Shown in pieces: positions 16,655 through 26,805 of a stretch of DNA of 64,000 nucleotides (position 1 is the stretch's first letter; each line of letters starts with the position of its first letter). This stretch comes from Halobacterium sp. R2-5 (GTDB lineage: Archaea > Halobacteriota > Halobacteria > Halobacteriales > Halobacteriaceae): NCBI RefSeq assembly GCF_011734195.1, contig NZ_JAANTH010000001.1, positions 620,001 through 684,000 of the forward strand, in the 5' to 3' direction. The translations under genes and the position numbers were made by a program. The notes under the pieces are model-generated. The model was not told the origin of the DNA. It was given only the letters and a program-made list of their open reading frames with translations, and searched no databases.

Positions 16655-17728
16655 CTACAGCAGGTCGTCCAGCTGGTCGTTCTGGAAGTTCTCCGTCGGG
16701 TCTACTTCCTCGACGGCCTCGCTGGCCTCCGCGGCGCGCTCCATGAACGCCTCGATGCGGTCGGAACGCGAGACGCCCGACAGCAACACGAGCACCGCGA
16801 CCTTCTCGGAGTCCAGCGGGAAGTCGCCGCCGCGTACCTGCATGCTTCGAGTCTCCTCCTCGACCCACGACCGGGCCTTCTCGACGCCCTTCCGGGAGAC
16901 GCGGTCGGGCTCCCCGGCGACGACGACGAGCGCCGCGCCCGCCTCCGTCGTGTCGGGAACGCTCATCCCCGTGAGCAGGGACTTCCGCGCGGTCGACGTG
17001 ATGACGTTGACGTTCTCGCCGGCGTCCGGCGCGGCGTCCGCGCTCGCGAACCCGACAGCGGACATGTCTCCGGACTTCAGCGTGTTGATGACCTCGCTGG
17101 AGTCGACGACGCTCTCACCGACGCCCTCGACGTTCTCGCCCGCCGCGAGCAGGATGCCGACGCGGCGCGCGATGCGCTCGTTGATGGCGTCGAACGCGTC
17201 CGTGACGCTCTCGCCGGTCTTCCGCCACGCGTCGTTGTCCACGAGCAGCGTGGAGTCGGCCTCCCGGACGAGCGTCTTCAGCGACCGGCCGGCGTTCGCC
17301 TGGTAGATGCCGCCCTCGTCGCGGCCCGGCAGGATACCGAGCGCGTACACCGGAATCTCGTGAACGCGCTGGAGTTCCTTCACGAGCACGGGCGCGCCGC
17401 CGGACCCGGTGCCGCCGCCGAGCCCGGCGACGACGAAGATGGCCTCCGTCTGCGCGTCGACGACGCCGTCGAGTTCGCCGACGACCTCGCCGAGATCGCT
17501 CTGCATCACTTCCGCGCCGAGCTCGTTGTCCGCGCCGACGCCGTGGCCTTTCACGCGTTCCTGGCCGACGAGCACCGTGTCGATGTCCAGGGGTTCGAGG
17601 TCCGCCTTCGCCGTGTTGACCGCGAGCGCGCCGCGGACTGCGCCGTAGTCCGAACGCCGGTCTTCTTCGAGGAGAGCTTCGGTGACCTTCCCGCCGGCCT
17701 GTCCGACACCGATGAGGGCGGCTTTCAT
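16655..17728 (-). CDS. cetZ: CetZ-type tubulin/FtsZ superfamily GTPase
   Basis: A 357-residue cytoskeletal GTPase. The tubulin signature GGGTGSGG is at residues 104-111, preceded by the nucleotide-binding GVGQAGGKV at 7-15 and the CetZ-like NTAKADL near 38. The T7/synergy region resembles CetZ rather than FtsZ1/FtsZ2: CetZ proteins control cell shape and motility in haloarchaea. The C-terminus ends in an acidic tail (NFQNDQLDDLL). The ATG at 17728 begins MKAALIGVG. It is divergent from the pilus-like locus with only 75 bases to the GTG start at 17804, so the two may share regulation. Confidence 0.88.
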   Translation of the reverse strand: MKAALIGVGQAGGKVTEALLEEDRRSDYGAVRGALAVNTAKADLEPLDIDTVLVGQERVKGHGVGADNELGAEVMQSDLGEVVGELDGVVDAQTEAIFVVAGLGGGTGSGGAPVLVKELQRVHEIPVYALGILPGRDEGGIYQANAGRSLKTLVREADSTLLVDNDAWRKTGESVTDAFDAINERIARRVGILLAAGENVEGVGESVVDSSEVINTLKSGDMSAVGFASADAAPDAGENVNVITSTARKSLLTGMSVPDTTEAGAALVVVAGEPDRVSRKGVEKARSWVEEETRSMQVRGGDFPLDSEKVAVLVLLSGVSRSDRIEAFMERAAEASEAVEEVDPTENFQNDQLDDLL

Positions 17729-17777: not shown

Positions 17778-17803
17778 GCCGGATGACGCGGCCACTTCGG
17801 GGC

Positions 17804-18250
17804 GTGTCCGACGACGACCTCGCCGAACGGCTGCGAGCGGTAGAGCGCGCGGTGACCGACAGCGACACCGCCGTCAGCGACCTCTCCGGGCCGGCGGCCG
17901 TCCACGAGCGCCTCGACTCCCTGGAGGCCGAACTGGACGACCTCGGCGAGCGCGTGGACGCCCTCGACGCCACCGTCCAGTCGCTGCACGGCTACGTCGG
18001 CGAACTCGAAGCCGTCAACGAGCGCGTGCAGCGCCGCGCGGACGCCGCCCGCGAGGCAGTCGACCGCCTCGAAGCCGAGCAGTCCCGGCCGGCGGCGAAC
18101 GTCCCCGAACGCGCGACCGGGAATGCCGGGTCGGCCGACGCGGACTCCGACAGTCCCGAACGCCACGACCGAACAGCGGGAGACAGCGATCTCCGATCCC
18201 GGACTACGGACGACGAATCGCTGCTCGACCGCGTCCGGGAGTCGCTGTGA
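17804..18250 (+). CDS. Coiled-coil protein heading the pilus-like locus
   Basis: A 148-residue soluble protein with a long heptad region (about residues 30-95, SLEAELDDLGERVDALDATV onward) and a polar acidic tail. No enzyme motif or membrane segment. I recall this kind of protein (DUF7310-like) as a constant first gene of this haloarchaeal locus. The GTG at 17804 (MSDDDLAERL) is preferred over the ATG at 17783 by TATA spacing. The stop overlaps the GTG of the next gene (GTGA). It may form a cytoplasmic scaffold for the ATPase; that is inference. Confidence 0.7.
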   Translation: MSDDDLAERLRAVERAVTDSDTAVSDLSGPAAVHERLDSLEAELDDLGERVDALDATVQSLHGYVGELEAVNERVQRRADAAREAVDRLEAEQSRPAANVPERATGNAGSADADSDSPERHDRTAGDSDLRSRTTDDESLLDRVRESL

Positions 18251-18732
18251 CCGTCCGGGTAGTGCTCGCGGTCGTGTTCGCGCTCGCGCTCCTCGCGGCG
18301 GCCCAGCCGGCAGTCGACCACGCGACCCGGACGCGCGACGACGCGGCCGTCCGTGCGAGCGCCGAGCGCGTCGCGGACGCGGCCGCGGACCTCCAGCGCC
18401 GGAGCGACCCCGACGAGAGCGTCGAGACTGCTCCACGTCGGACGCTTCGGCTCGACCTCCCCGACGACGCGACGCTCCGCGTCCGCGACAGCCCGCCGCG
18501 GCTCGTCTCGCGACTGCCGAACGGTCCAGAACACCGCCACTCGCTTCCAGTCGCCGTCGAAACGTGTGGCGACGCGACTCTCGACGGGCCGACGACGCTG
18601 GCGTACGTCGAGCGCGCGGACGGCCCCGTCGTGCTCGCGCTGCGAGGGTTTATCCGGAGGAACGCGACCACCGCGTCCCATGCGTGCGCTCCTCGACCGC
18701 TTCGCGGCGGACGACCCGGACTGCGGCTGTGA
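18247..18732 (+). CDS. Small N-terminally anchored protein of the pilus-like locus
   Basis: A 161-residue protein that starts with GTG overlapping the previous stop. Residues 4-22 form a hydrophobic segment (VRVVLAVVFALALLAAAQP), followed by an extracytoplasmic-looking domain with one cysteine near 102. It overlaps the ATPase gene by 53 bases, which is unusually long, so its last 18 residues are read in a different frame from the start of the ATPase. I recall such proteins as DUF7311-like. It may be a minor pilin or an assembly factor. Confidence 0.65.
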   Translation: MTVRVVLAVVFALALLAAAQPAVDHATRTRDDAAVRASAERVADAAADLQRRSDPDESVETAPRRTLRLDLPDDATLRVRDSPPRLVSRLPNGPEHRHSLPVAVETCGDATLDGPTTLAYVERADGPVVLALRGFIRRNATTASHACAPRPLRGGRPGLRL

Positions 18733-20476
18733 GGTCACTCGCGACGGCGCGCTCCGCGTGGACGCGGGCGGCTGTCCGGGCGGCGGCGACCTCGTCGACC
18801 AGCCCGCGTGTCGCGCCACCGTCGCGGACGCGTGCCGCCGAGCCGACGCGGACCGAATCGTCGTCGACGCGTCCGGTTTCCGGCGCGAGTACGGCCCTCG
18901 CGCCGTCGCGCTGTTCACCGCAGCCGGCCGGTTCGCCGCGAGAGTCGCGGACCGCGACCACCGACTCGCAGCTCGCGCCCGCACCGACCCGCTCGCGGCG
19001 GGCGCGGAAGCCAGCGGACGCGCGGGACCGGTCGCCGAAATCGCCGCCGAGACCGGGTTCGCGGCCGCGGCGGGCGACCTGCCGGACTACGACGCGCTCC
19101 GCCCGCACGTCGGCCCGGCGCTCGCGGACGCCCGCATCGACCCGACGCCGCCGCCTGACGGCCGGCTCCGGGACACGCGGACGCTCGAAACGAACGCGAC
19201 CGTCCGCGAGTACGCGGTCCCCGGCGACCTCCCGGTCTACCACGTCGTGCCGCCCGAGTACGAGTTCGCGCCCGCGGACTGCCGCGTCCTCGCCGACGCA
19301 CGGCGCCTGCTCGCGAACGGCTCGATTCCCGACGGCGAGGACGCACCGGGCCGTGCAGTCCGGGAAGCCGCGAGCGAGCATCGCGAGCCACTCGCGGACG
19401 CGCTCCGCAAGCACACGCGCGGGTTCGGCGTCCTCGAAGACGTCTTCGCCGACCCGCGGATCTCGGACGCGTACGCGAGCGCTCCCGTCAGCGAGGGCGT
19501 GCTCCGCGTCACCGTCGACGGCGAGGACGCCCGGACGAACGTCCGGTTCACGGACGCGGGCGCCGACCGGCTCGCCTCCCGGCTGCGCGCGGAGAGCGGG
19601 CGGCCGTTCTCCCGCGCGCACCCGACACTCGACGCCGCAATCGGCGGGCTCGGGACCGCCGGCCGGGTGCGGGTCGCCGGCGTCACCGACCCCGTCAGCG
19701 ACGGTACCGGGTTCGCGTTCCGCGCGCACGACGCCGACCCGTTCCGGCTCCCCGACCTCGTCGCGAACGGCACGCTCTCCACCGGCCTCGCGGGCCTCCT
19801 CGTCGAGGCGCTGCGCCGCGGCGCGGCCGTCCTGTTCGCGGGCGCTCGTGGTGCCGGGAAGACGACGCTGCTCGGCGCGACGCTGTGGGGGATCGCCAGA
19901 GGGACTCGGCTCGTCACGATCGAGGACACGCCCGAGCTCCCGGTGCGCGCGCTCCGCGGCGACGGCCGCGACGTCCAGGCGCTGTACGCGAACAGCGACG
20001 GCGCGGGCGCGGACGTCTCGATGGCGGACGCGCTCCGCACCGCGCTCCGGCTCGGCGACGGCGCCATCGCGGTCGGCGAGGTCCGCGGCGAGGAGGCGCG
20101 CGTGCTCTACGAGGCGATGCGCGTCGGCGCCAGCGACGCCGCCGTGCTCGGCACGATACACGGCGAGGGCGCCGGGGGCGTCCGCGAGCGCGTCGTCTCC
20201 GACCTCGGCGTCGCTCCCTCGTCGTTCGCCGCGACCGACCTCGTCGTCACGCTCGCCGACACCGCCGACGGCCGCCGCGTCACGCGCGTCGAGGAAGTGA
20301 CCGAGGACGGCGCCGCGGCGCTCTACGAGGACGCGGGCGAGGGCGCCGAACCGACCGCCCGAATCGCGCGCGGGAACAGCGACGTAGTCGCCGAACTCGC
20401 GGCGCCCGGCGAGACGTACGCGGACGTCCGGGACGCGATTCGCGCCCGCGCTGACCGCCTTCCGAGCGATGACTGA
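18680..20476 (+). CDS. Type IV pilus/type II secretion-type ATPase
   Basis: A 598-residue assembly ATPase of the PilB/TadA/archaellum ArlI class, which powers pilin insertion from the cytoplasmic face. Walker A GARGAGKTT is at 388-396, the Asp box ITIEDTPELP-like near 413, Walker B AIAVGEVRGEEARVL near 459, and the His-box-like LGTIHGEGAGG near 490. The middle of the protein (about 190-290) is the N-terminal domain that binds the membrane partner. Unusually, residues 15-52 hold five cysteines (15, 17, 32, 44, 52) suggesting a metal site. Its stop overlaps the next gene's start by eight bases. Confidence 0.88.
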   Translation: MRALLDRFAADDPDCGCEVTRDGALRVDAGGCPGGGDLVDQPACRATVADACRRADADRIVVDASGFRREYGPRAVALFTAAGRFAARVADRDHRLAARARTDPLAAGAEASGRAGPVAEIAAETGFAAAAGDLPDYDALRPHVGPALADARIDPTPPPDGRLRDTRTLETNATVREYAVPGDLPVYHVVPPEYEFAPADCRVLADARRLLANGSIPDGEDAPGRAVREAASEHREPLADALRKHTRGFGVLEDVFADPRISDAYASAPVSEGVLRVTVDGEDARTNVRFTDAGADRLASRLRAESGRPFSRAHPTLDAAIGGLGTAGRVRVAGVTDPVSDGTGFAFRAHDADPFRLPDLVANGTLSTGLAGLLVEALRRGAAVLFAGARGAGKTTLLGATLWGIARGTRLVTIEDTPELPVRALRGDGRDVQALYANSDGAGADVSMADALRTALRLGDGAIAVGEVRGEEARVLYEAMRVGASDAAVLGTIHGEGAGGVRERVVSDLGVAPSSFAATDLVVTLADTADGRRVTRVEEVTEDGAAALYEDAGEGAEPTARIARGNSDVVAELAAPGETYADVRDAIRARADRLPSDD

Positions 20477-22046
20477 CCCCGCGAACCCTCGCCGCGCGAC
20501 CGCCGCACTCGCCGTCTCGGCGCTGCTCGCACTCGCGGCCGCGCGCTGGAATCCGTACGCCGGCACCGCTGTTGCCCTTCTCGGCGTGGCGGCAGCTACA
20601 GCCCTCGCGTACGGGCCGCACGTCCGAGCGGTCGCGGAGCGCTCGCGCGCGCTCGGCGCTGCGCCAGACCTCGTCTGCCTGGTCGTCCTCTCGCTGCGGC
20701 TCGACCCCACGCTCGAACGCGCGGCGTGGTTCGCCGCCGACCACGGCGACGGCCGCCTCGCGGCCAGTCTCGCCGCCCACGCCCGCGAAGCCCGTGGGAC
20801 ACCCGGCGCCGGCTTCGACGCGTTCGCCGCGACGTGGACAGAACACCTGCCGTCGCTGCGGCGCGCAGCTGCCCTCGCCGACGCTGCCGTCGACGCGCCC
20901 GCCGGCGACCGCGAACGCCTCCTCGACCGCACGCTCGCCGTCGTCGTCGAGGGCGCCCGGGAGCGCGCCAGCGAGTACGCCGACGCCGTCCACGGCCCGA
21001 CGATGGGCGTCTACGCGTTCGGCGTCGTGCTCCCGCTCGCGCTCGTCGGCGTCGTCCCCGCGGCGGCGAGCGCCGGGATGCCGCTCGCGCTCGGTGCCGT
21101 CGCGCTCGCGTACGTCGTCGTGCTGCCGGTCGCGGTGCTCGCCGTCGTCTGCTGGATTCTCGCGCGGCGCCCGGTCGCGTTCCCGCCCGCGGCCGTCCCC
21201 GCCGACCACCCGGGGCTCGACGACCGGACGCGAAACGCCGGGTTCGCGGCCGTCTGCGGCGTCGCTGCCGCCCTCGTCGCCTCCCGGTTGCTGCCGTCGT
21301 GGTCGCTGCCGGTGCTACTCGTCGGCTGGCCCGTCGGCGGCGCGCTCGCCTACTGGTTCCGATCCGCCTGCGAAGTCCGCGAGGACGCCCGAAGCGTCGA
21401 AGACGGCCTCGCGGACGCGCTCTCCGTGCTCGGCCACCAGCTCCGCCACGGCCGCGCCGTTGAGGCCGCGGTCGCGGACGCCGGCGACACGCTCGACGGC
21501 GCCACCGGCGACGTCTTCGACGCGGCCGCACGCCGGATGCGCCGCCTCCGCATCGGCGTCGAGGGAGCCTTCCTCGGGGAGCACGGGCCGCTCGCGCGAA
21601 CCCGCAGCCAGCGCGCCCGCGCCGCCGTCTCGCTCGTCGTCCACGCCGCCGACGCCGGGCCTGCGGGCGGCCGCGTGCTCGTCGACGTCGCGGACTGCTT
21701 CGACGACCTCGCCGACCTCGACCGCGAGGTCCGGCGCGAGTTCGCGTCGACGACGCGGACGCTCCGGCACACCGCGCTCCTCTACGCGCCCCTCGTCGCC
21801 GGCGTCACCGTCGCGCTCGCCGGCCGCGTGAGCGGGCTCGACGGCGCGAGCGCGCTCCCAGCCGGCCCGCTCGCGCTCGTCGTCGGCGCCTACGTGCTGT
21901 GGCTCGCGGTCGTCCTACCCGCGCTCGCAGTCGGCCTCGACCGCGGGCTGGACCGCGCGCTCGTCGGCTACCACGCCGGTCTCGCGCTCGCCGCCGCGGC
22001 GGCCGTCTACCCCGTCACCGCGTTCGCCGCGGGCCGCGTGCTCTAA
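20469..22046 (+). CDS. Type II secretion system F-type (TadC/PilC-like) membrane protein
   Basis: A 525-residue polytopic protein, the platform on which the assembly ATPase works. Hydrophobic segments group near residues 15-45, 180-225, 260-300, 435-465 and 475-525, separating two cytoplasmic helical domains (about 60-175 and 310-430) as in archaeal PilC/ArlJ proteins. The second cytoplasmic domain carries SVEDGLADALSVLGHQLRHG, which fits the T2SSF helix pattern. It begins inside the ATPase gene, so the pair is translationally coupled; a new promoter follows its stop. Confidence 0.85.
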   Translation: MTDPANPRRATAALAVSALLALAAARWNPYAGTAVALLGVAAATALAYGPHVRAVAERSRALGAAPDLVCLVVLSLRLDPTLERAAWFAADHGDGRLAASLAAHAREARGTPGAGFDAFAATWTEHLPSLRRAAALADAAVDAPAGDRERLLDRTLAVVVEGARERASEYADAVHGPTMGVYAFGVVLPLALVGVVPAAASAGMPLALGAVALAYVVVLPVAVLAVVCWILARRPVAFPPAAVPADHPGLDDRTRNAGFAAVCGVAAALVASRLLPSWSLPVLLVGWPVGGALAYWFRSACEVREDARSVEDGLADALSVLGHQLRHGRAVEAAVADAGDTLDGATGDVFDAAARRMRRLRIGVEGAFLGEHGPLARTRSQRARAAVSLVVHAADAGPAGGRVLVDVADCFDDLADLDREVRREFASTTRTLRHTALLYAPLVAGVTVALAGRVSGLDGASALPAGPLALVVGAYVLWLAVVLPALAVGLDRGLDRALVGYHAGLALAAAAAVYPVTAFAAGRVL

Positions 22047-22054
22047 TTTTAAAC
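22047..22054 (+). promoter_or_regulatory. Internal TATA element in the pilus-like locus
   Basis: TTTTAAAC is centred about 29 bases upstream of the ATG at 22079 and begins immediately after the preceding stop. It splits the locus into a machinery block and a surface-protein block. Confidence 0.6.
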
Positions 22055-22078
22055 GGGAGGGCGCGGCCAACCCGCCCC

Positions 22079-22549
22079 ATGTTCGACACGCTCGCCGACG
22101 TTCCGCCGGTGCTCGTCGCACTCTCGCTGGTCAGCACGACGCTGCTCGGCGTCGCGTTCGCCGCCAAGCCGTCCGCTCCGTCGCGCGCCGCGCCGCTCGC
22201 GAGCACGGTCGACACCGTCGCGAGCGCGGACCGCGCGAGCGTCGAAACCGAGGACGTCGACGCCGACGCGATTCGCGTCACCTCTCGCAAGCTCGCCGTC
22301 CGCGACGACGGCCGAACCACGAGCCAGTCGTTCGCGTACGGCCCCGTAGTTCCCGTCCAGCGGGACACTGCGCTCTGGCGCGTCCTCCGCGGCGTCCCAC
22401 CGGACGAGGTGTTCGACGGCGAACGCGCGCTCGAACGCGCAGTCGGCAGCGCCCGGGACCGAGACGCCGAGTGGCGCCGGGACCGCCAGCAGTTGACCGT
22501 CCGCCGCGTCACCTGGAGGGGTGTCGATGTCACGCTCGTCGGCGCGTGA
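22079..22549 (+). CDS. Membrane-anchored surface protein 1 of the pilus-like locus
   Basis: A 156-residue protein with one N-terminal hydrophobic segment (residues 10-29, PVLVALSLVSTTLLGVAFAA) and a polar domain predicted outside. No cysteines and no enzyme motif. I recall a DUF7283-like family in this position in haloarchaea. It overlaps the next gene by 23 bases. The arrangement of a short lead, a hydrophobic helix and an outside domain fits a minor pilin, but no clear class III cleavage site is seen. Confidence 0.68.
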   Translation: MFDTLADVPPVLVALSLVSTTLLGVAFAAKPSAPSRAAPLASTVDTVASADRASVETEDVDADAIRVTSRKLAVRDDGRTTSQSFAYGPVVPVQRDTALWRVLRGVPPDEVFDGERALERAVGSARDRDAEWRRDRQQLTVRRVTWRGVDVTLVGA

Positions 22550-22919
22550 GGCGCAGGTCGAGCCGCTGCCCGCGCTCGTCGCCGTGGCCGTCGTCTGTCT
22601 CGCGGTCGGCGCGTTCGCGACGGTGCGCGCGGACGTCTTACCTGCCGCCACCAGCGACGTGCCCGCCGACGACGTGCTCTCGGACGCGGTCGACGCGGCG
22701 ACGCCGGAGGGCGCGGTCGTCGTCGACCCGCAGCGGATCGACGCCCCGGTCGCCCCGGAAGGCTACGAATCCCGGGTGACCGTGACCGCGAGCGGGCGAG
22801 AGTGGACTGCCGGCGAGCAGCCCCCGCCGGACGCCGCGACGGCGAGCCAGCGAGTGCCGGTACGCGTCGCGGACGGCCGAACCCGCCCCGGAAAAATCAC
22901 CGTGGCGGTGTGGCCGTGA
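22527..22919 (+). CDS. TadE/pilin-like protein 2 of the pilus-like locus
   Basis: A 130-residue protein. The start MSRSSAREAQVEPLPALVA has the short basic lead, A-Q-V-E entry and hydrophobic helix seen in TadE-like and archaeal pilin-like proteins; the helix spans about residues 14-33. The rest is an outside beta-rich domain. An alternative GTG two codons upstream (22521) exists. It overlaps both neighbours, the downstream one by a GTGA tetranucleotide. I recall it as DUF7285-like. Confidence 0.68.
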   Translation: MSRSSAREAQVEPLPALVAVAVVCLAVGAFATVRADVLPAATSDVPADDVLSDAVDAATPEGAVVVDPQRIDAPVAPEGYESRVTVTASGREWTAGEQPPPDAATASQRVPVRVADGRTRPGKITVAVWP

Positions 22920-23374
22920 GCCGCGCCGTCAGCACCGTCCTCGACGCCTCACTGGCAATCCTGCTCGTGAGCGCGGCCGCCGTCGCGCTCGTCGCGATAC
23001 CCGGCGGCGATCAGCGACCACCCGACCCGGACGCCACTGCGCGGACAGTGCTCGCGAGCACGGCGACCGCGGAGTACCAGGCCGCGAACGGCAGCCGGCG
23101 GTCCGTCTCGGGACGCGCTGGAACGCTGCTCGCGCACGCCGCGCTCGCCGACAGCCGGGACGGGGCCCCGGGATTCGTCCGAGCTGTCGAAGCGGCAATC
23201 GAGGACGTGCTCGTCGCTACGGGCGGCCGCGTCGAGGTCGTCGCGGCGACGGGAGAGGGTCGCGTTCGCGTCGGTGAGCGGCCGCCGCCGAGCGCGTCCG
23301 TCTCCGGCGTCTCCCACGAGGTCGCCGTGGAGCACGAGTCCGCGACGGTCACCGTTCGGACGTGGTCGCCGTGA
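22916..23374 (+). CDS. Pilin-like protein 3 of the pilus-like locus
   Basis: A 152-residue protein opening with SRAVSTVLDASLAILLVSA, very like the RAVSPVIGV start of archaeal type IV pilins processed by PibD. The hydrophobic helix covers residues 6-28; the remainder is polar and probably external, with one N-glycosylation sequon (NGS). GTG start overlaps the previous stop (GTGA). I recall it as DUF7284-like. Whether it is cleaved depends on a peptidase encoded elsewhere. Confidence 0.68.
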   Translation: MSRAVSTVLDASLAILLVSAAAVALVAIPGGDQRPPDPDATARTVLASTATAEYQAANGSRRSVSGRAGTLLAHAALADSRDGAPGFVRAVEAAIEDVLVATGGRVEVVAATGEGRVRVGERPPPSASVSGVSHEVAVEHESATVTVRTWSP

Positions 23375-26325
23375 GACTCGCCGACGACGAGCGTGCTCGC
23401 GTGCCGTTCGCACTCGTCGGCGTGGTGCTGCTCGTCGGGAGCGCGACCGCTGCGGCAGCGCTCGCCGGCCACGACCCCGCGCCAGCCGAGACGCGTAGCG
23501 AACGCGCGGTCGACCGCGCGCTGACCAGCGCCGACGCCGCACTCGCCAGCGCCGCTCGCTCGGCGGCCGACGACGCAGTCCGGAACCCCGTCGTCGTGCG
23601 CGCGAACACCACGTTCGGCACCGCCATCGGCCCCGAGACGCCGTTCCGTGACGCGCTCGCGCTCCGCGTGTACGCTCGCACGGAGCACGCGCTCCGCGGC
23701 GACGGGTCAGCCGTCGGCTCGGTGTCGGCGAGGGCGTCTCTCCCGCGCGTCGAGACGGCGGCGGACGCCGAGCGCGCAGTCGACGCCGTCTCGCTCGAGC
23801 GAGTCGGCGAGGACGCGATGCGGGTCACGCTCTCCGCCGTCCGAATCGCGGTCGAGCGCGACGGCCGAACCGTCTCGCAGTCGACGCGGAACGTCTCGGT
23901 GACTGTCCACAGCCCCGCGCTCGCGCTCCACGACCGCGTCCAGCGATTCGAGCGGCTGCTCGACCGCGGCGCGTTCGCCGGCCCGGGCCTGGACCGCCGG
24001 CTCACCGACTACCTCCACCGCGTCGTCTGGCTGCGCGGCCCGCTGCAGTACGCGGGCGTCCCGATTTCGAACGTGCTCGCGAACCGCCACGTCGAGGTGA
24101 TGGCGAACCGTGCGCTGCTGGACGTCCAGCGGACGGCGTTCGGCCGCGAGGACGGCGAAGGCCGGACGGCGTACGGCCGAGCGCTCGCTCGCGTCGGGCT
24201 CGAAGACGTGCTCTCGGTCGCGGCGAAGGACGCGGAGAAGCGCGCGAACGCGGTCCTGCAGACGCCGGGCGCGTCCGAGACGGTGAAGGTCGGGAAGTCG
24301 GCGGCCATGGACGCGGTCGACCTGCCCGCCCAGACCGTGCCGGTCGGCGTCAACGCCACCGCGGACCGCGCGTTCGTCGACTTCGCGGACGGCAGCGACG
24401 GCGCCTCCCTGGACGCCACACTGCGGGCCGCGTACGCGTCTGTCGCGCGCCGCGACGTCGACGCGGCCGTCCTCAACAGAACGACGTCCGAGTCGGGCCA
24501 CGCGCCGGAGAACTGGACGCTCGCGGAGACGACCGGAGACCGCGACGTCGATGTCGGGGCAGCCGTCGAACCCGCGGACGTGCTCGTCGACGGACAGCGC
24601 GCCGTCGAGACGTACGGGCGGCGCGTAGTCGTCACGGAACGCGAGACGCGCCGATACACCGAGGGTAACCGGAGCCGCAGCGTCGTCGAGACGACCGAGA
24701 CCACCTACCGTGTCTCCGTCGGCGTCGGGTACGAGCTCCGGCCGCAGGCCGAGGGCTTGCCCGAGCCCGCCAGACGTGTGCTCGACGCGGACGCGAGCCG
24801 CGTCACGCCGGCGGTCCGCGACCACATCGCCTCGCGCGCCACGCAGTCGCTCGTCCGGGACGCGGGCGGCGTCGACGAACTCGCACGGAACGCAGTGAGT
24901 GGAGGCCCCCTCGCGCGAGAGGCGGTCGTCCACCCGGAGCTTCCCGAAACGGTCCGAAAGCGCGCGTACCGGGCGGCTGCGGCGCTCCGGGAGGAGGCGC
25001 GAAACGTCTCGGCGGACGTCTCCACGCGCGGATTGGCTGGTGGACGCGTCCCCGTCGACACGCTCCGCGGCCGCGTGACTGCGCTCCACGACGGTCGCCA
25101 GCGATACGACTCGGCGACCGACCGCGCGGTCGCCGCGGTTCGGGCCGCCTACCTCGCGCGCGTCTCTTCACGGCTCGGGGAACGGCGCGCGGACGGTGCG
25201 CTCTCCTCGGTCGGCGAGGCGCTCGGCGACCGCGGGCTCGAACCGCCGCCAACGGACCACGGCAGCGAGCGGGACGCCGGCCCGGTCGCGCGTGTCGAAG
25301 GCGCGCCGGCGTACCTCACACTCGCGGAAGTCACGCCACAGGCCGCGGGCGAGGTCGAGGAGTCGTACTACCCGCTCGTGGCGCGGAACGTGAACTGGTT
25401 CACAGTGCCGCACGGCGACGCCGCCGAAGCCGTCGTGGACGCGGCGATGCCCGAGCCGCCGGAGTCGGTCCGCCTCGGCACCGCGGCGCAGGCGCTCGCG
25501 GCGGCCAACGGTACGCTGGACGCCGCACCGAATCGGACCCTGCGCCGCGAACGCCGGAGCCTGCAGTCGGACGTCGCCGCGGGTGTATCGGCAGCCGGCA
25601 CCGCGTACCGCGGCGTGCTCGCGTCGTCGCCGCTCGCGTTCACGGAACGTGAGCGGCGTGCAGCGACCCGGCTCGCGTTCGAGCGGTGGGAGACGACACA
25701 CGGACGGGGGTCGGCCGTCGGCAACGGGTCGGCGGCGGCAGCGGTCGCCGACGTGGCTGCCCGCATCGCCGACGCGTCGCCACGAGAACGCGACCGACTG
25801 GCGACGCGGCTCCGCGCGGCGTCCGCAGACGTCGCGGACAGCGAGCGGGTGCGGGTGGACGCCGGCGTCGTGCGGGACGCGGCGGACGTGACGCGCCGCG
25901 TCGGGAGCGCCGTCGCGGCGAACGCGCTCTCCGAGGCGGGGTCGATAGCCGCCGAGAAAGCCGCGAAGCGCCTCGGCGCGGCGGACGTCGGCGCGGTGCC
26001 AGCGGGCCTGCCACTGGCGCCCGTGCCCGGGTTCTGGTACGCGACGGCGAACGCGTGGTCGGTCTCGGCGCGCGGGTCGTACGCCGAGTTCACCGTGCAC
26101 GCTGAGGGCGGGTCGCCGGTCGGCCCTGGAGGCGGGACGGCGTACGTCCGGGAGGACGCGACTGTCGCGTTCGACGTGGACGGCGACGGGGACGCGGAGC
26201 GCGTCGGGCGCAACGAGCGCGTATCGTTCGAGGTCGAGGCGACTGTCGGCGTGGTCGTGCCGGCGGGACCGCGCGGCGTCGGCGACGTCGACGGGAATGC
26301 CGACGAGCAGTCCGCGGGGTGGTGA
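23371..26325 (+). CDS. Giant pilin-like surface protein of the locus
   Basis: A 984-residue protein with a basic, short lead (RLADDERAR), a single hydrophobic helix (residues about 12-35, VPFALVGVVLLVGSATAAAA) and about 950 residues likely outside the cell. That part holds ten N-X-S/T sequons and no cysteines, fitting a glycosylated haloarchaeal surface protein; helical alanine/arginine-rich stretches dominate, with a C-terminal beta-like domain from about 890. GTG at 23371 overlaps the previous stop; a GTG three codons upstream is possible. I recall it as DUF7286-like. It could be the adhesive tip or the largest subunit. Confidence 0.7.
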   Translation: MRLADDERARVPFALVGVVLLVGSATAAAALAGHDPAPAETRSERAVDRALTSADAALASAARSAADDAVRNPVVVRANTTFGTAIGPETPFRDALALRVYARTEHALRGDGSAVGSVSARASLPRVETAADAERAVDAVSLERVGEDAMRVTLSAVRIAVERDGRTVSQSTRNVSVTVHSPALALHDRVQRFERLLDRGAFAGPGLDRRLTDYLHRVVWLRGPLQYAGVPISNVLANRHVEVMANRALLDVQRTAFGREDGEGRTAYGRALARVGLEDVLSVAAKDAEKRANAVLQTPGASETVKVGKSAAMDAVDLPAQTVPVGVNATADRAFVDFADGSDGASLDATLRAAYASVARRDVDAAVLNRTTSESGHAPENWTLAETTGDRDVDVGAAVEPADVLVDGQRAVETYGRRVVVTERETRRYTEGNRSRSVVETTETTYRVSVGVGYELRPQAEGLPEPARRVLDADASRVTPAVRDHIASRATQSLVRDAGGVDELARNAVSGGPLAREAVVHPELPETVRKRAYRAAAALREEARNVSADVSTRGLAGGRVPVDTLRGRVTALHDGRQRYDSATDRAVAAVRAAYLARVSSRLGERRADGALSSVGEALGDRGLEPPPTDHGSERDAGPVARVEGAPAYLTLAEVTPQAAGEVEESYYPLVARNVNWFTVPHGDAAEAVVDAAMPEPPESVRLGTAAQALAAANGTLDAAPNRTLRRERRSLQSDVAAGVSAAGTAYRGVLASSPLAFTERERRAATRLAFERWETTHGRGSAVGNGSAAAAVADVAARIADASPRERDRLATRLRAASADVADSERVRVDAGVVRDAADVTRRVGSAVAANALSEAGSIAAEKAAKRLGAADVGAVPAGLPLAPVPGFWYATANAWSVSARGSYAEFTVHAEGGSPVGPGGGTAYVREDATVAFDVDGDGDAERVGRNERVSFEVEATVGVVVPAGPRGVGDVDGNADEQSAGW

Positions 26326-26373
26326 GCCGCGGCAAGCGTAGCCTCCTTGAACGCTCGGGGCGTACGGGCGAGC

Positions 26374-26805
26374 GTGCTAGCCGACGAAATCCAGGACCCC
26401 GGAGACCAGACACCCGGGCAGGTGCGCGCGGAGTACGAGGCGGCGCTCGGTCGCGTCGTCGAGGCCGAGGGCGTCGACAGCGTCGCGGCGGCCTCGGGCG
26501 TCGACGAGGCGAAGCTGACGGCGCTCGCGGGCGGTGACCCCGTCGAGATCACGCTCGAAGAGGCGGCGGGAATCTTCGCGGTCAGCGACGACTGGCCGGA
26601 CGCCGAGGGCCTGCTGCTGGAGGTCCGGGACAACCTGATGCTCCAGATGAGCTCCGCGGTGATGGACGTGGAGGCGCTCGCCAGCGGGCTCGACGACGAC
26701 TACGACCCGAAGGAGATTCAGCAGAAGATCGAGGGGCGCCAGGCGATGACTCTGGAGGAGTACGCCCGTATCTACCGGCACATCGCGGCCGAGAACCCGT
26801 ACTGA
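26374..26805 (+). CDS. Conserved haloarchaeal helical protein (DUF5791-like)
   Basis: A 143-residue acidic, all-helical soluble protein. Blocks such as TPGQVRAEYEAALGRVV, VTLEEAAGIFAV-like ITLEEAAGIFAVSDDWPDAE and IEGRQAMTLEEYARIYRHIA recall a DUF5791-type family found across haloarchaea; the function is unknown. The GTG at 26374 gives MLADEIQDPG; a TTG nine codons upstream is the longer alternative. The stop shares a base with the following SDR gene's ATG (TGATG), indicating coupling. Confidence 0.75.
   Translation: MLADEIQDPGDQTPGQVRAEYEAALGRVVEAEGVDSVAAASGVDEAKLTALAGGDPVEITLEEAAGIFAVSDDWPDAEGLLLEVRDNLMLQMSSAVMDVEALASGLDDDYDPKEIQQKIEGRQAMTLEEYARIYRHIAAENPY

Follow-up and report, generated by a model that had tools for sequence, protein, structure and literature searches.

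Which machine do the eight tightly joined genes beside a cetZ gene of Halobacterium sp. R2-5 encode, and is it a new one? The window analyzed here is a stretch of 64,000 nucleotides, and its positions 17804-26325 hold eight open reading frames on the + strand, g1 to g8 (Table 1). An earlier note, made from the sequence alone, had described joined same-strand genes for a coiled-coil protein, a small anchored protein, an assembly ATPase, a TadC/PilC-type platform and four single-helix anchored proteins. All frames were recovered at the positions it gave, with an ATPase of the TadA/PilB type and a platform that matches T2SSF weakly. The locus is a complete copy of an already catalogued haloarchaeal type IV pilus-like machine of putative function. 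We consider it probable that this is a PilB2/PilC2 (clade 4F, pil-2) assembly machine with a tip or initiation complex containing DUF7286.

Table 1. Features of the pilus-like locus and its borders, in window coordinates.
Feature	Coordinates	Strand	Assignment	Match or remark
cetZ2	16655..17728	-	divergent neighbour	CetZ_C E 5.3e-64; start taken at MKAALIGV
TTTTAA	17772..17777	+	TATA-like element	read from sequence; centre ~30 bp 5' of g1 GTG start
g1	17804..18250	+	DUF7310, predicted cytoplasmic coiled-coil protein	Pfam E 5.4e-27; no membrane helix
g2	18247..18732	+	DUF7311, one N-terminal membrane anchor	Pfam E 6.9e-20
g3	18680..20476	+	TadA/CpaF/ArlI-type assembly ATPase (PilB2)	T2SSE E 3.5e-18; TIGR03819 4.7e-37
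g4	20469..22046	+	PilC/TadC-type membrane platform (PilC2)	T2SSF at residues 319-444, weak
g5	22079..22549	+	DUF7283	Pfam E 1.7e-39
g6	22527..22919	+	DUF7285, pilin-like, predicted class III signal	Pfam E 1.6e-26
g7	22916..23374	+	DUF7284, pilin-like	Pfam E 4.4e-15, covering 1-161 of 278
g8	23371..26325	+	DUF7286, predicted 984-aa surface protein	Pfam E 4.6e-273
DUF5791 gene	26347..26805	+	conserved downstream border	Pfam E 1e-46

GTGA overlaps join g1 to g2 (18247-18250), g6 to g7 and g7 to g8, while g2/g3, g3/g4 and g5/g6 overlap by 53, 8 and 23 bp and a 32-bp gap separates g4 from g5. According to a simple hydropathy scan, g1 and g3 lack membrane helices, g2 and g5 to g8 each have a single N-terminal one, and g4 has several; the last four anchored proteins follow in the order DUF7283, DUF7285, DUF7284 and DUF7286. 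The TATA-like element would fit a leaderless transcript beginning near 17804, and an alternative ATG start of g1 lies at 17783. A scan for bacterial promoters and terminators upstream of the locus, a method ill-suited to archaea, gave no match, nor did an Rfam search of the 64-kb window.

The family and motifs of g3 bear out the reading of a type IV pilus-like assembly locus that has an ATPase of its own. Its nucleotide-binding motifs are intact (Walker A GARGAGKT, GEVRGEE and GTIHGE), its relatives in the PDB are 2oap/FlaI/CpaF, and it shares 27-30% identity with four of the other assembly ATPases of the same genome. The multi-helix protein g4 matches T2SSF at E 0.017, under the family cut-off, and its gene directly follows that of the ATPase, likewise in relatives. 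A prepilin-type cleavage motif is present in just 4 of 74 g2 relatives, and g1 is probably arCOG07564 of Makarova 2016.

In this context, three published systems are relevant. Makarova, Koonin and Albers (2016, PMC4858521) described halobacterial clade 4F loci that include a coiled-coil protein and an FtsZ-like gene, and the present locus fits that system by its gene content. It shares with clade 4F and PilB2-C2 loci a VirB11/PilB/TadA-family ATPase, an intracellular coiled-coil protein specific to such loci (here g1, assuming that DUF7310 is arCOG07564), several predicted pilins of class III and the adjoining FtsZ-like gene, here cetZ2; the place of their TadC platform is taken by the weakly matching g4. 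The main text of that paper neither identifies the proteins at the Pfam level nor traces losses of the locus, and it does not model the large protein. A PilA-family major pilin is not required in such loci and is often stand-alone. The locus also fits the pilB2/C2 regulon that Brown and Duggin (2023, PMC9856176) linked to cetZ2, in which the pilB2/C2 operon adjoins cetZ2 within a region that conserves an epimerase and arCOG04674. Very probably it is, by orthology taken from gene order, the pil-2 of Halobacterium salinarum (Losensky 2014, PMC4292770), a species that shares its genus with the nearest named relatives of the locus. The pil-2 operon of strain R1 (OE1347R-OE1332R) has the ATPase, the platform, three predicted prepilins and one further gene in order; it measures 6.9 kb and carries an in-frame stop in pilC2, whereas g3 to g8 cover 7.6 kb and are intact. 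It is co-transcribed and up in adherent cells, where pilB2 transcripts are 8.5-fold higher; expression of pilB2 is low, and the pili seen by microscopy depend on pilB1 (PMC4292770). With the system already in two of these papers and the matching operon shown to be transcribed in the third, the undescribed status given in the earlier note is not supported. A literature search on the DUF names of the locus returned no paper.

The subunits themselves are best understood by comparison across relatives. Three anchored proteins had been singled out for pilin-like starts, and their N-termini REAQVEPLPALVA (g6), SRAVSTVLD (g7, SRA-VSTVLD) and ERARVPFALVGV (g8) are present as quoted. A [KR][GA] cleavage motif occurs in 85/88 relatives of g8, 81/88 of g6 and 51/91 of g7, being missing in about 40 of the latter, and in 0/88 of g5. 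By these patterns g6, g7 and g8 have conserved predicted class III (prepilin-type) cleavage motifs and g5 and g2 do not. The g6 family motif R-[GA]-Q-x-E-P reads EA-QVEP in the window copy, and the g8 family starts class III-like with R-[GA]-R-[VI]-PFAL, followed by a large ectodomain. An acidic residue at +6 in the early helix is fixed in g5 (position 7 in 88/88 relatives) and in g7 (an invariant Asp in 91/91), while g8 conserves none early in its helix. The length of g7 is about 150 aa here versus about 280 aa in most genera.

The pilin or TadE fold anticipated for these proteins did not emerge from the two that were modelled, as the confident models of g5 (pLDDT 86.7) and g8 (pLDDT 83.7) have no significant match to a solved pilin or TadE-like structure. 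The g5 layout comprises an N-terminal anchor, a Pro-rich linker and a small alpha/beta head; Foldseek of its model against the PDB gave no match at E<=0.001, and many of the non-significant ones were to small beta-barrel/OB folds. Its acidic residue had suggested a leaderless pilin, an idea that its model led us to reject. For g8, the largest part of the locus, Foldseek against the PDB and viral models found no match at E<=0.001, and a likeness to SecB or a phage maturation protein was judged not credible; as modelled, its ectodomain has a fold that matches no solved structure. Profile-profile comparison among g1, g2 and g5 to g8 yielded no convincing pair, the best being g5-g7 at 13% probability. 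A search for Pilin_N (PilA-family pilin) gave no match in the locus and five above cut-off elsewhere in the genome; likewise, no prepilin peptidase gene lies within the locus and one Peptidase_A24 gene lies elsewhere. The word complete in the earlier note thus needs narrowing, as the PilA-family pilin and the peptidase are encoded outside.

These properties bear on whether the locus builds a conventional long pilus, with g6 or g7 as the major subunit and g8 as just a rare accessory protein. Such a pilus would accord with the small size of g6 and with its class III start, the most typical one for archaea; a few g6 members weakly match Pilin_N, DUF7287, DUF7288 and DUF7263. We nevertheless regard it as unlikely: each of the four subunits is single copy, Pfam assigns none of them to the PilA family, the g7 cleavage site is lost in many genera, and the literature found reports no pil-2 filament.

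The neighbourhood invites a different reading. The earlier note was right that a cetZ gene adjoins the locus but took it for a shape and motility tubulin, a role established for CetZ1; by sequence the neighbour is CetZ2. Its product scores 473 bits to 4b45 versus 350 bits to 4b46, which we take to be H. volcanii CetZ2 and CetZ1, respectively. A longer cetZ2 frame extends to 17755 (-). In published expression data cetZ2 is mostly down under mating conditions, and pilB2 values were not found there; a literature search on H. volcanii locus tags near cetZ2 gave unrelated or passing mentions only. The divergent cetZ2 adjoins 50 of 64 complete loci, and DUF5791 is adjacent in 57 of the 64. Together with the CetZ scaffold proposed by Brown and Duggin (PMC9856176), the large g8 ectodomain and a locus without a PilA-type pilin, this adjacency could speak for a non-filamentous secretion or envelope machine, whose short pseudopilus would act as a piston or an S-layer-spanning anchor placed by CetZ2. 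We find this doubtful, since complete eight-gene loci of the Natrialbaceae type occur away from cetZ2, cetZ2 is retained in genomes where the locus was lost, and no substrate gene is known.

The evolutionary record of the locus is informative on its origin. Conserved order and co-occurrence with the ATPase, proposed as a check, are both found: all eight genes stand in order in 64 of 80 named relatives, which places the set far beyond chance. Among 146 haloarchaeal genomes DUF7286 is present in 111, DUF7285 in 107 and DUF7283 in 107, so that the locus is conserved in about 73% of them (107/146); DUF7285 accompanies DUF7286 in 107 of these 111, and the remaining four genomes, with DUF7286 only, are deletion scars. 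In a control, the locus families match in H. volcanii. Six locus-less genomes keep remnants of g1, g2, g3 or g8 in the same slot, between cetZ2 and DUF5791, and in the window's own genus g4 is absent from 6 of 13 genomes, at least three of which hold scars. Across 26 loci, g3 and g8 diverge in step with cetZ2 and DUF5791, their distances being correlated at Mantel r 0.69-0.83 (0/500 permutations as high). Brown and Duggin (PMC9856176) favour a mobile or recent distribution, the locus being patchy beside cetZ2 and the flanks generally consistent in species without it; the scars and co-evolution seen here instead indicate an ancestral locus, repeatedly lost and descending largely in step with its flanking genes, and we reject a newly acquired mobile cassette as very improbable. 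DUF7286 relatives occur in methanogens, where g6-g8-like genes stand without recognised g3 or g4 within the DNA stretches read.

In the PilB2/PilC2 machine that we favour, the ATPase g3 would couple to the platform g4, assisted by the coiled coil g1 and the anchored g2, and the two would pull membrane-anchored subunits out and build a filament or short pseudopilus. The precursors of g6, g7 and g8 would be class III, and the one prepilin peptidase of the genome, encoded outside the locus, would trim them. Together g5 to g8 would make up an initiation or tip complex, with g8 at the filament end as an adhesive or sensing head because it appears too large to repeat along the shaft; the shaft itself would consist either of g6/g7 or of a PilA-type pilin provided in trans. 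Attachment to surfaces or between cells would be a likely use. Support comes from the family and intact motifs of g3, the cleavage motifs of g6 to g8 with the one Peptidase_A24 gene, the conserved order, the near-perfect co-occurrence and the Natrialbaceae-type loci away from cetZ2. The small-small-small-large order and the acidic-residue pattern recall minor pseudopilins: in T2SS GspH-I-J-K, small anchored subunits likewise precede a large one without an early conserved acidic residue, although g5 to g8 match them neither in sequence nor in fold. GspK lacks Glu5. The rise of pilB2 in adherent cells, the clade 4F description and the cetZ2 link add to this (PMC4292770, PMC4858521, PMC9856176). 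Counting against the model are the lack of a solved pilin fold for g5 and g8, the weak T2SSF match of g4, a locus without a major pilin, the g7 relatives without the motif and the methanogen genes without g3/g4; moreover, pilB1-dependent pili, low pilB2 and the R1 pilC2 stop leave pil-2 filaments unseen.

More tentatively, the locus could represent a filament class of its own, in which a short pseudopilus bears a giant, new-fold DUF7286 cap recruited by its +6-acidic neighbours. In Halorubrum, Haloferax and relatives, g7 would then have shifted from a peptidase-cleaved to a leaderless form, its start codon coinciding with the mature N-terminus or adjoining it.

The co-inheritance data define the set of eight genes, a recent mobile element is disfavoured by the scars, and in DUF7286 the locus has a large predicted surface protein whose modelled fold is unmatched. 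Haloarchaea carry several PilB/PilC systems, most of them without an assigned role, and the presence of this one in H. volcanii makes its role testable genetically.

The eight plus-strand genes g1 to g8 have the coordinates and junctions that the earlier note assigned to them, as checked in the sequence, and carry, in order, the Pfam names DUF7310, DUF7311, T2SSE, T2SSF (sub-threshold), DUF7283, DUF7285, DUF7284 and DUF7286. The Walker A, GEVRGEE and GTIHGE motifs of the ATPase g3 are all intact; it is nearest to TadA, archaellum and TrbB-type ATPases, all below curated cut-offs in NCBIfam, and is related in the PDB to the secretion ATPase 2oap, FlaI and CpaF. Comparison with solved structures identified the minus-strand neighbour as CetZ2. 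About 30 bp upstream of the GTG at 17804 there is a TATA-like TTTTAA, so this codon would be favoured over ATG 17783 as the start of g1.

Contrary to the earlier note, which took the product to be undescribed, the system is already in the literature. Makarova and co-workers reported that loci of halobacterial clade 4F include an FtsZ-like gene and encode a coiled-coil protein that is intracellular and unique (PMC4858521). Brown and Duggin found that a pilB2/C2 regulon adjoins cetZ2 in Haloferacales and Halobacteriales, accompanied by a conserved epimerase and arCOG04674 (PMC9856176). In Hbt. salinarum R1, Losensky and co-workers studied pil-2, whose seven ORFs (OE1347R to OE1332R) are co-transcribed; three encode FlaFind-positive prepilins, and pilC2 contains an in-frame stop; in NRC-1, pilB2 is interrupted by a 10-kb insert (PMC4292770). 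Because this ORF count fits an ATPase, a split platform and g5-g8, we infer that the window locus is the ortholog of pil-2. A literature search by the DUF names of the proteins found no paper. The locus is a catalogued system with a predicted function.

The genes travel together across haloarchaea. Scanning the DUF7286 alignment against 84,980 species genomes gave 80 named haloarchaeal loci, 64 of which hold all eight genes in the same order on one strand; of these, 50 have a divergent cetZ2 directly beside the locus and 57 have the DUF5791 gene next downstream. About half of the 16 incomplete loci are truncated by contig ends; the exceptions also comprise three rearranged loci (L069, L070, L105), a scar (L099), and two (L073, L094) with g5-g8 in which g1-g4 are absent from the DNA read. 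DUF7286 occurs in 111 of 146 class genomes and DUF7285 in 107, the four lacking the latter holding remnants only; DUF7283 is likewise found in 107 (absent from G045, a fragment in G064). Four divergent complete loci (L117, L119, L120, L124), from family f3 genomes, probably Natrialbaceae-type, and one other genome, have no cetZ2 in the DNA read. Two genomes, G058 (L117) and G077 (L118/L119), carry the subunit set in two copies, one diverged; L118 has no recognisable g1-g4 in the DNA read.

Outside the class, several families, f12 and f18 being two of them, also have DUF7286, and the control genome of Methanosarcina acetivorans gives a match. Three f18 genomes (L171, L172, L177) have g6-, g7- and g8-like genes in that order, and our own profile detected no ATPase in the DNA read. 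In L171 (883-12424), genes for class III pilins are arrayed opposite the triplet. Judging from these triplets, and from haloarchaeal loci where g5-g8 stand apart from some or all of g1-g4 (L069, L070, L073, L094, L105), subunit set and motor can be encoded separately.

Brown and Duggin proposed the cetZ2-linked regulon to be mobile or recently acquired (PMC9856176). Our data support repeated loss instead of recent gain. Six genomes retain pieces of the locus between cetZ2, or the usual neighbours, and DUF5791; others are clean.

Remnants of the locus in six genomes
Genome	Locus	Retained pieces
G012	L126	g1 and last quarter of g8
G067	L127	g1 and last quarter of g8
G150	L162	g1, g2 and end of g8
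G125	L128	g1 and part of g2
G056	L129	parts of g8
G044	L165	start of ATPase g3

The platform gene g4 is kept in 7 of 13 genomes of the window's genus. In three Halobacterium-genus scars g8 breaks at similar points (profile 709-766), perhaps reflecting one old deletion. Distances of the g3 and g8 proteins follow those of cetZ2 and DUF5791 (Mantel r 0.69-0.83, 26 loci); as they are not tree-corrected, they support vertical descent rather than prove it.

With our approximation of FlaFind (a [KR][GA] pair leading into a hydrophobic stretch), signals were detected in 85/88 g8, 81/88 g6 and 51/91 g7 proteins, in none of 88 g5 and in 4/74 g2. The N-terminus reads R-[GA]-R-[VI]-P-F-A in g8, with P, F and A invariant, and R-[AG]-Q/A-x-E-P in g6. 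All 91 g7 proteins have Asp at +6. It is retained in the roughly 40 members, mainly from Halorubrum, Haloferax and Halobellus, that begin at or beside the mature position (e.g. M-TSTVLD); in L043, L058, L081, L085-L092 and others, g7 has no prepilin leader and its start codon lies there. Sulfolobus PibD can cleave leaders of 3-4 residues (PMC4307647), which makes the short leaders in the remaining g7 members plausible. DUF7284 (g7, 22916-23374) has about 280 aa in most genera but about 150 aa in Halobacterium, where its C-terminal part is shortened at the level of the genus.

An acidic residue occupies position 7 in all 88 g5 proteins, in the register of leaderless g7. We do not call g5 a pilin, because its model (pLDDT 86.7, pTM 0.76) has no pilin match and its anchor is followed by a Pro-rich break; the head is alpha/beta, and structure search with the model gave no significant match. 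The g8 model (mean pLDDT 83.7, pTM 0.60) consists of helices 13-32 and 39-71 and a mixed alpha/beta ectodomain, with no match at E<=0.001 among PDB and viral models. Profile comparisons between the locus proteins were weak for every pair.

The analysis supports a type IV pilus-like motor with co-inherited membrane-anchored subunits, three bearing prepilin-type signals. The single peptidase gene found in the genome would serve the g6-g8 precursors, and PilA-type pilins encoded elsewhere possibly supply the machine, whose predicted product is a putative filament. Judged by size, order and charge pattern, g5-g8 could assemble into an initiation or tip complex that ends in g8. A role in attachment may be proposed from a relative, adherent Hbt. 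salinarum cells having pilB2 transcripts 8.5-fold up, though their level stays low (PMC4292770). What makes the system of interest is its large DUF7286 protein, the leader changes of g7 and the history of loss rather than its discovery.
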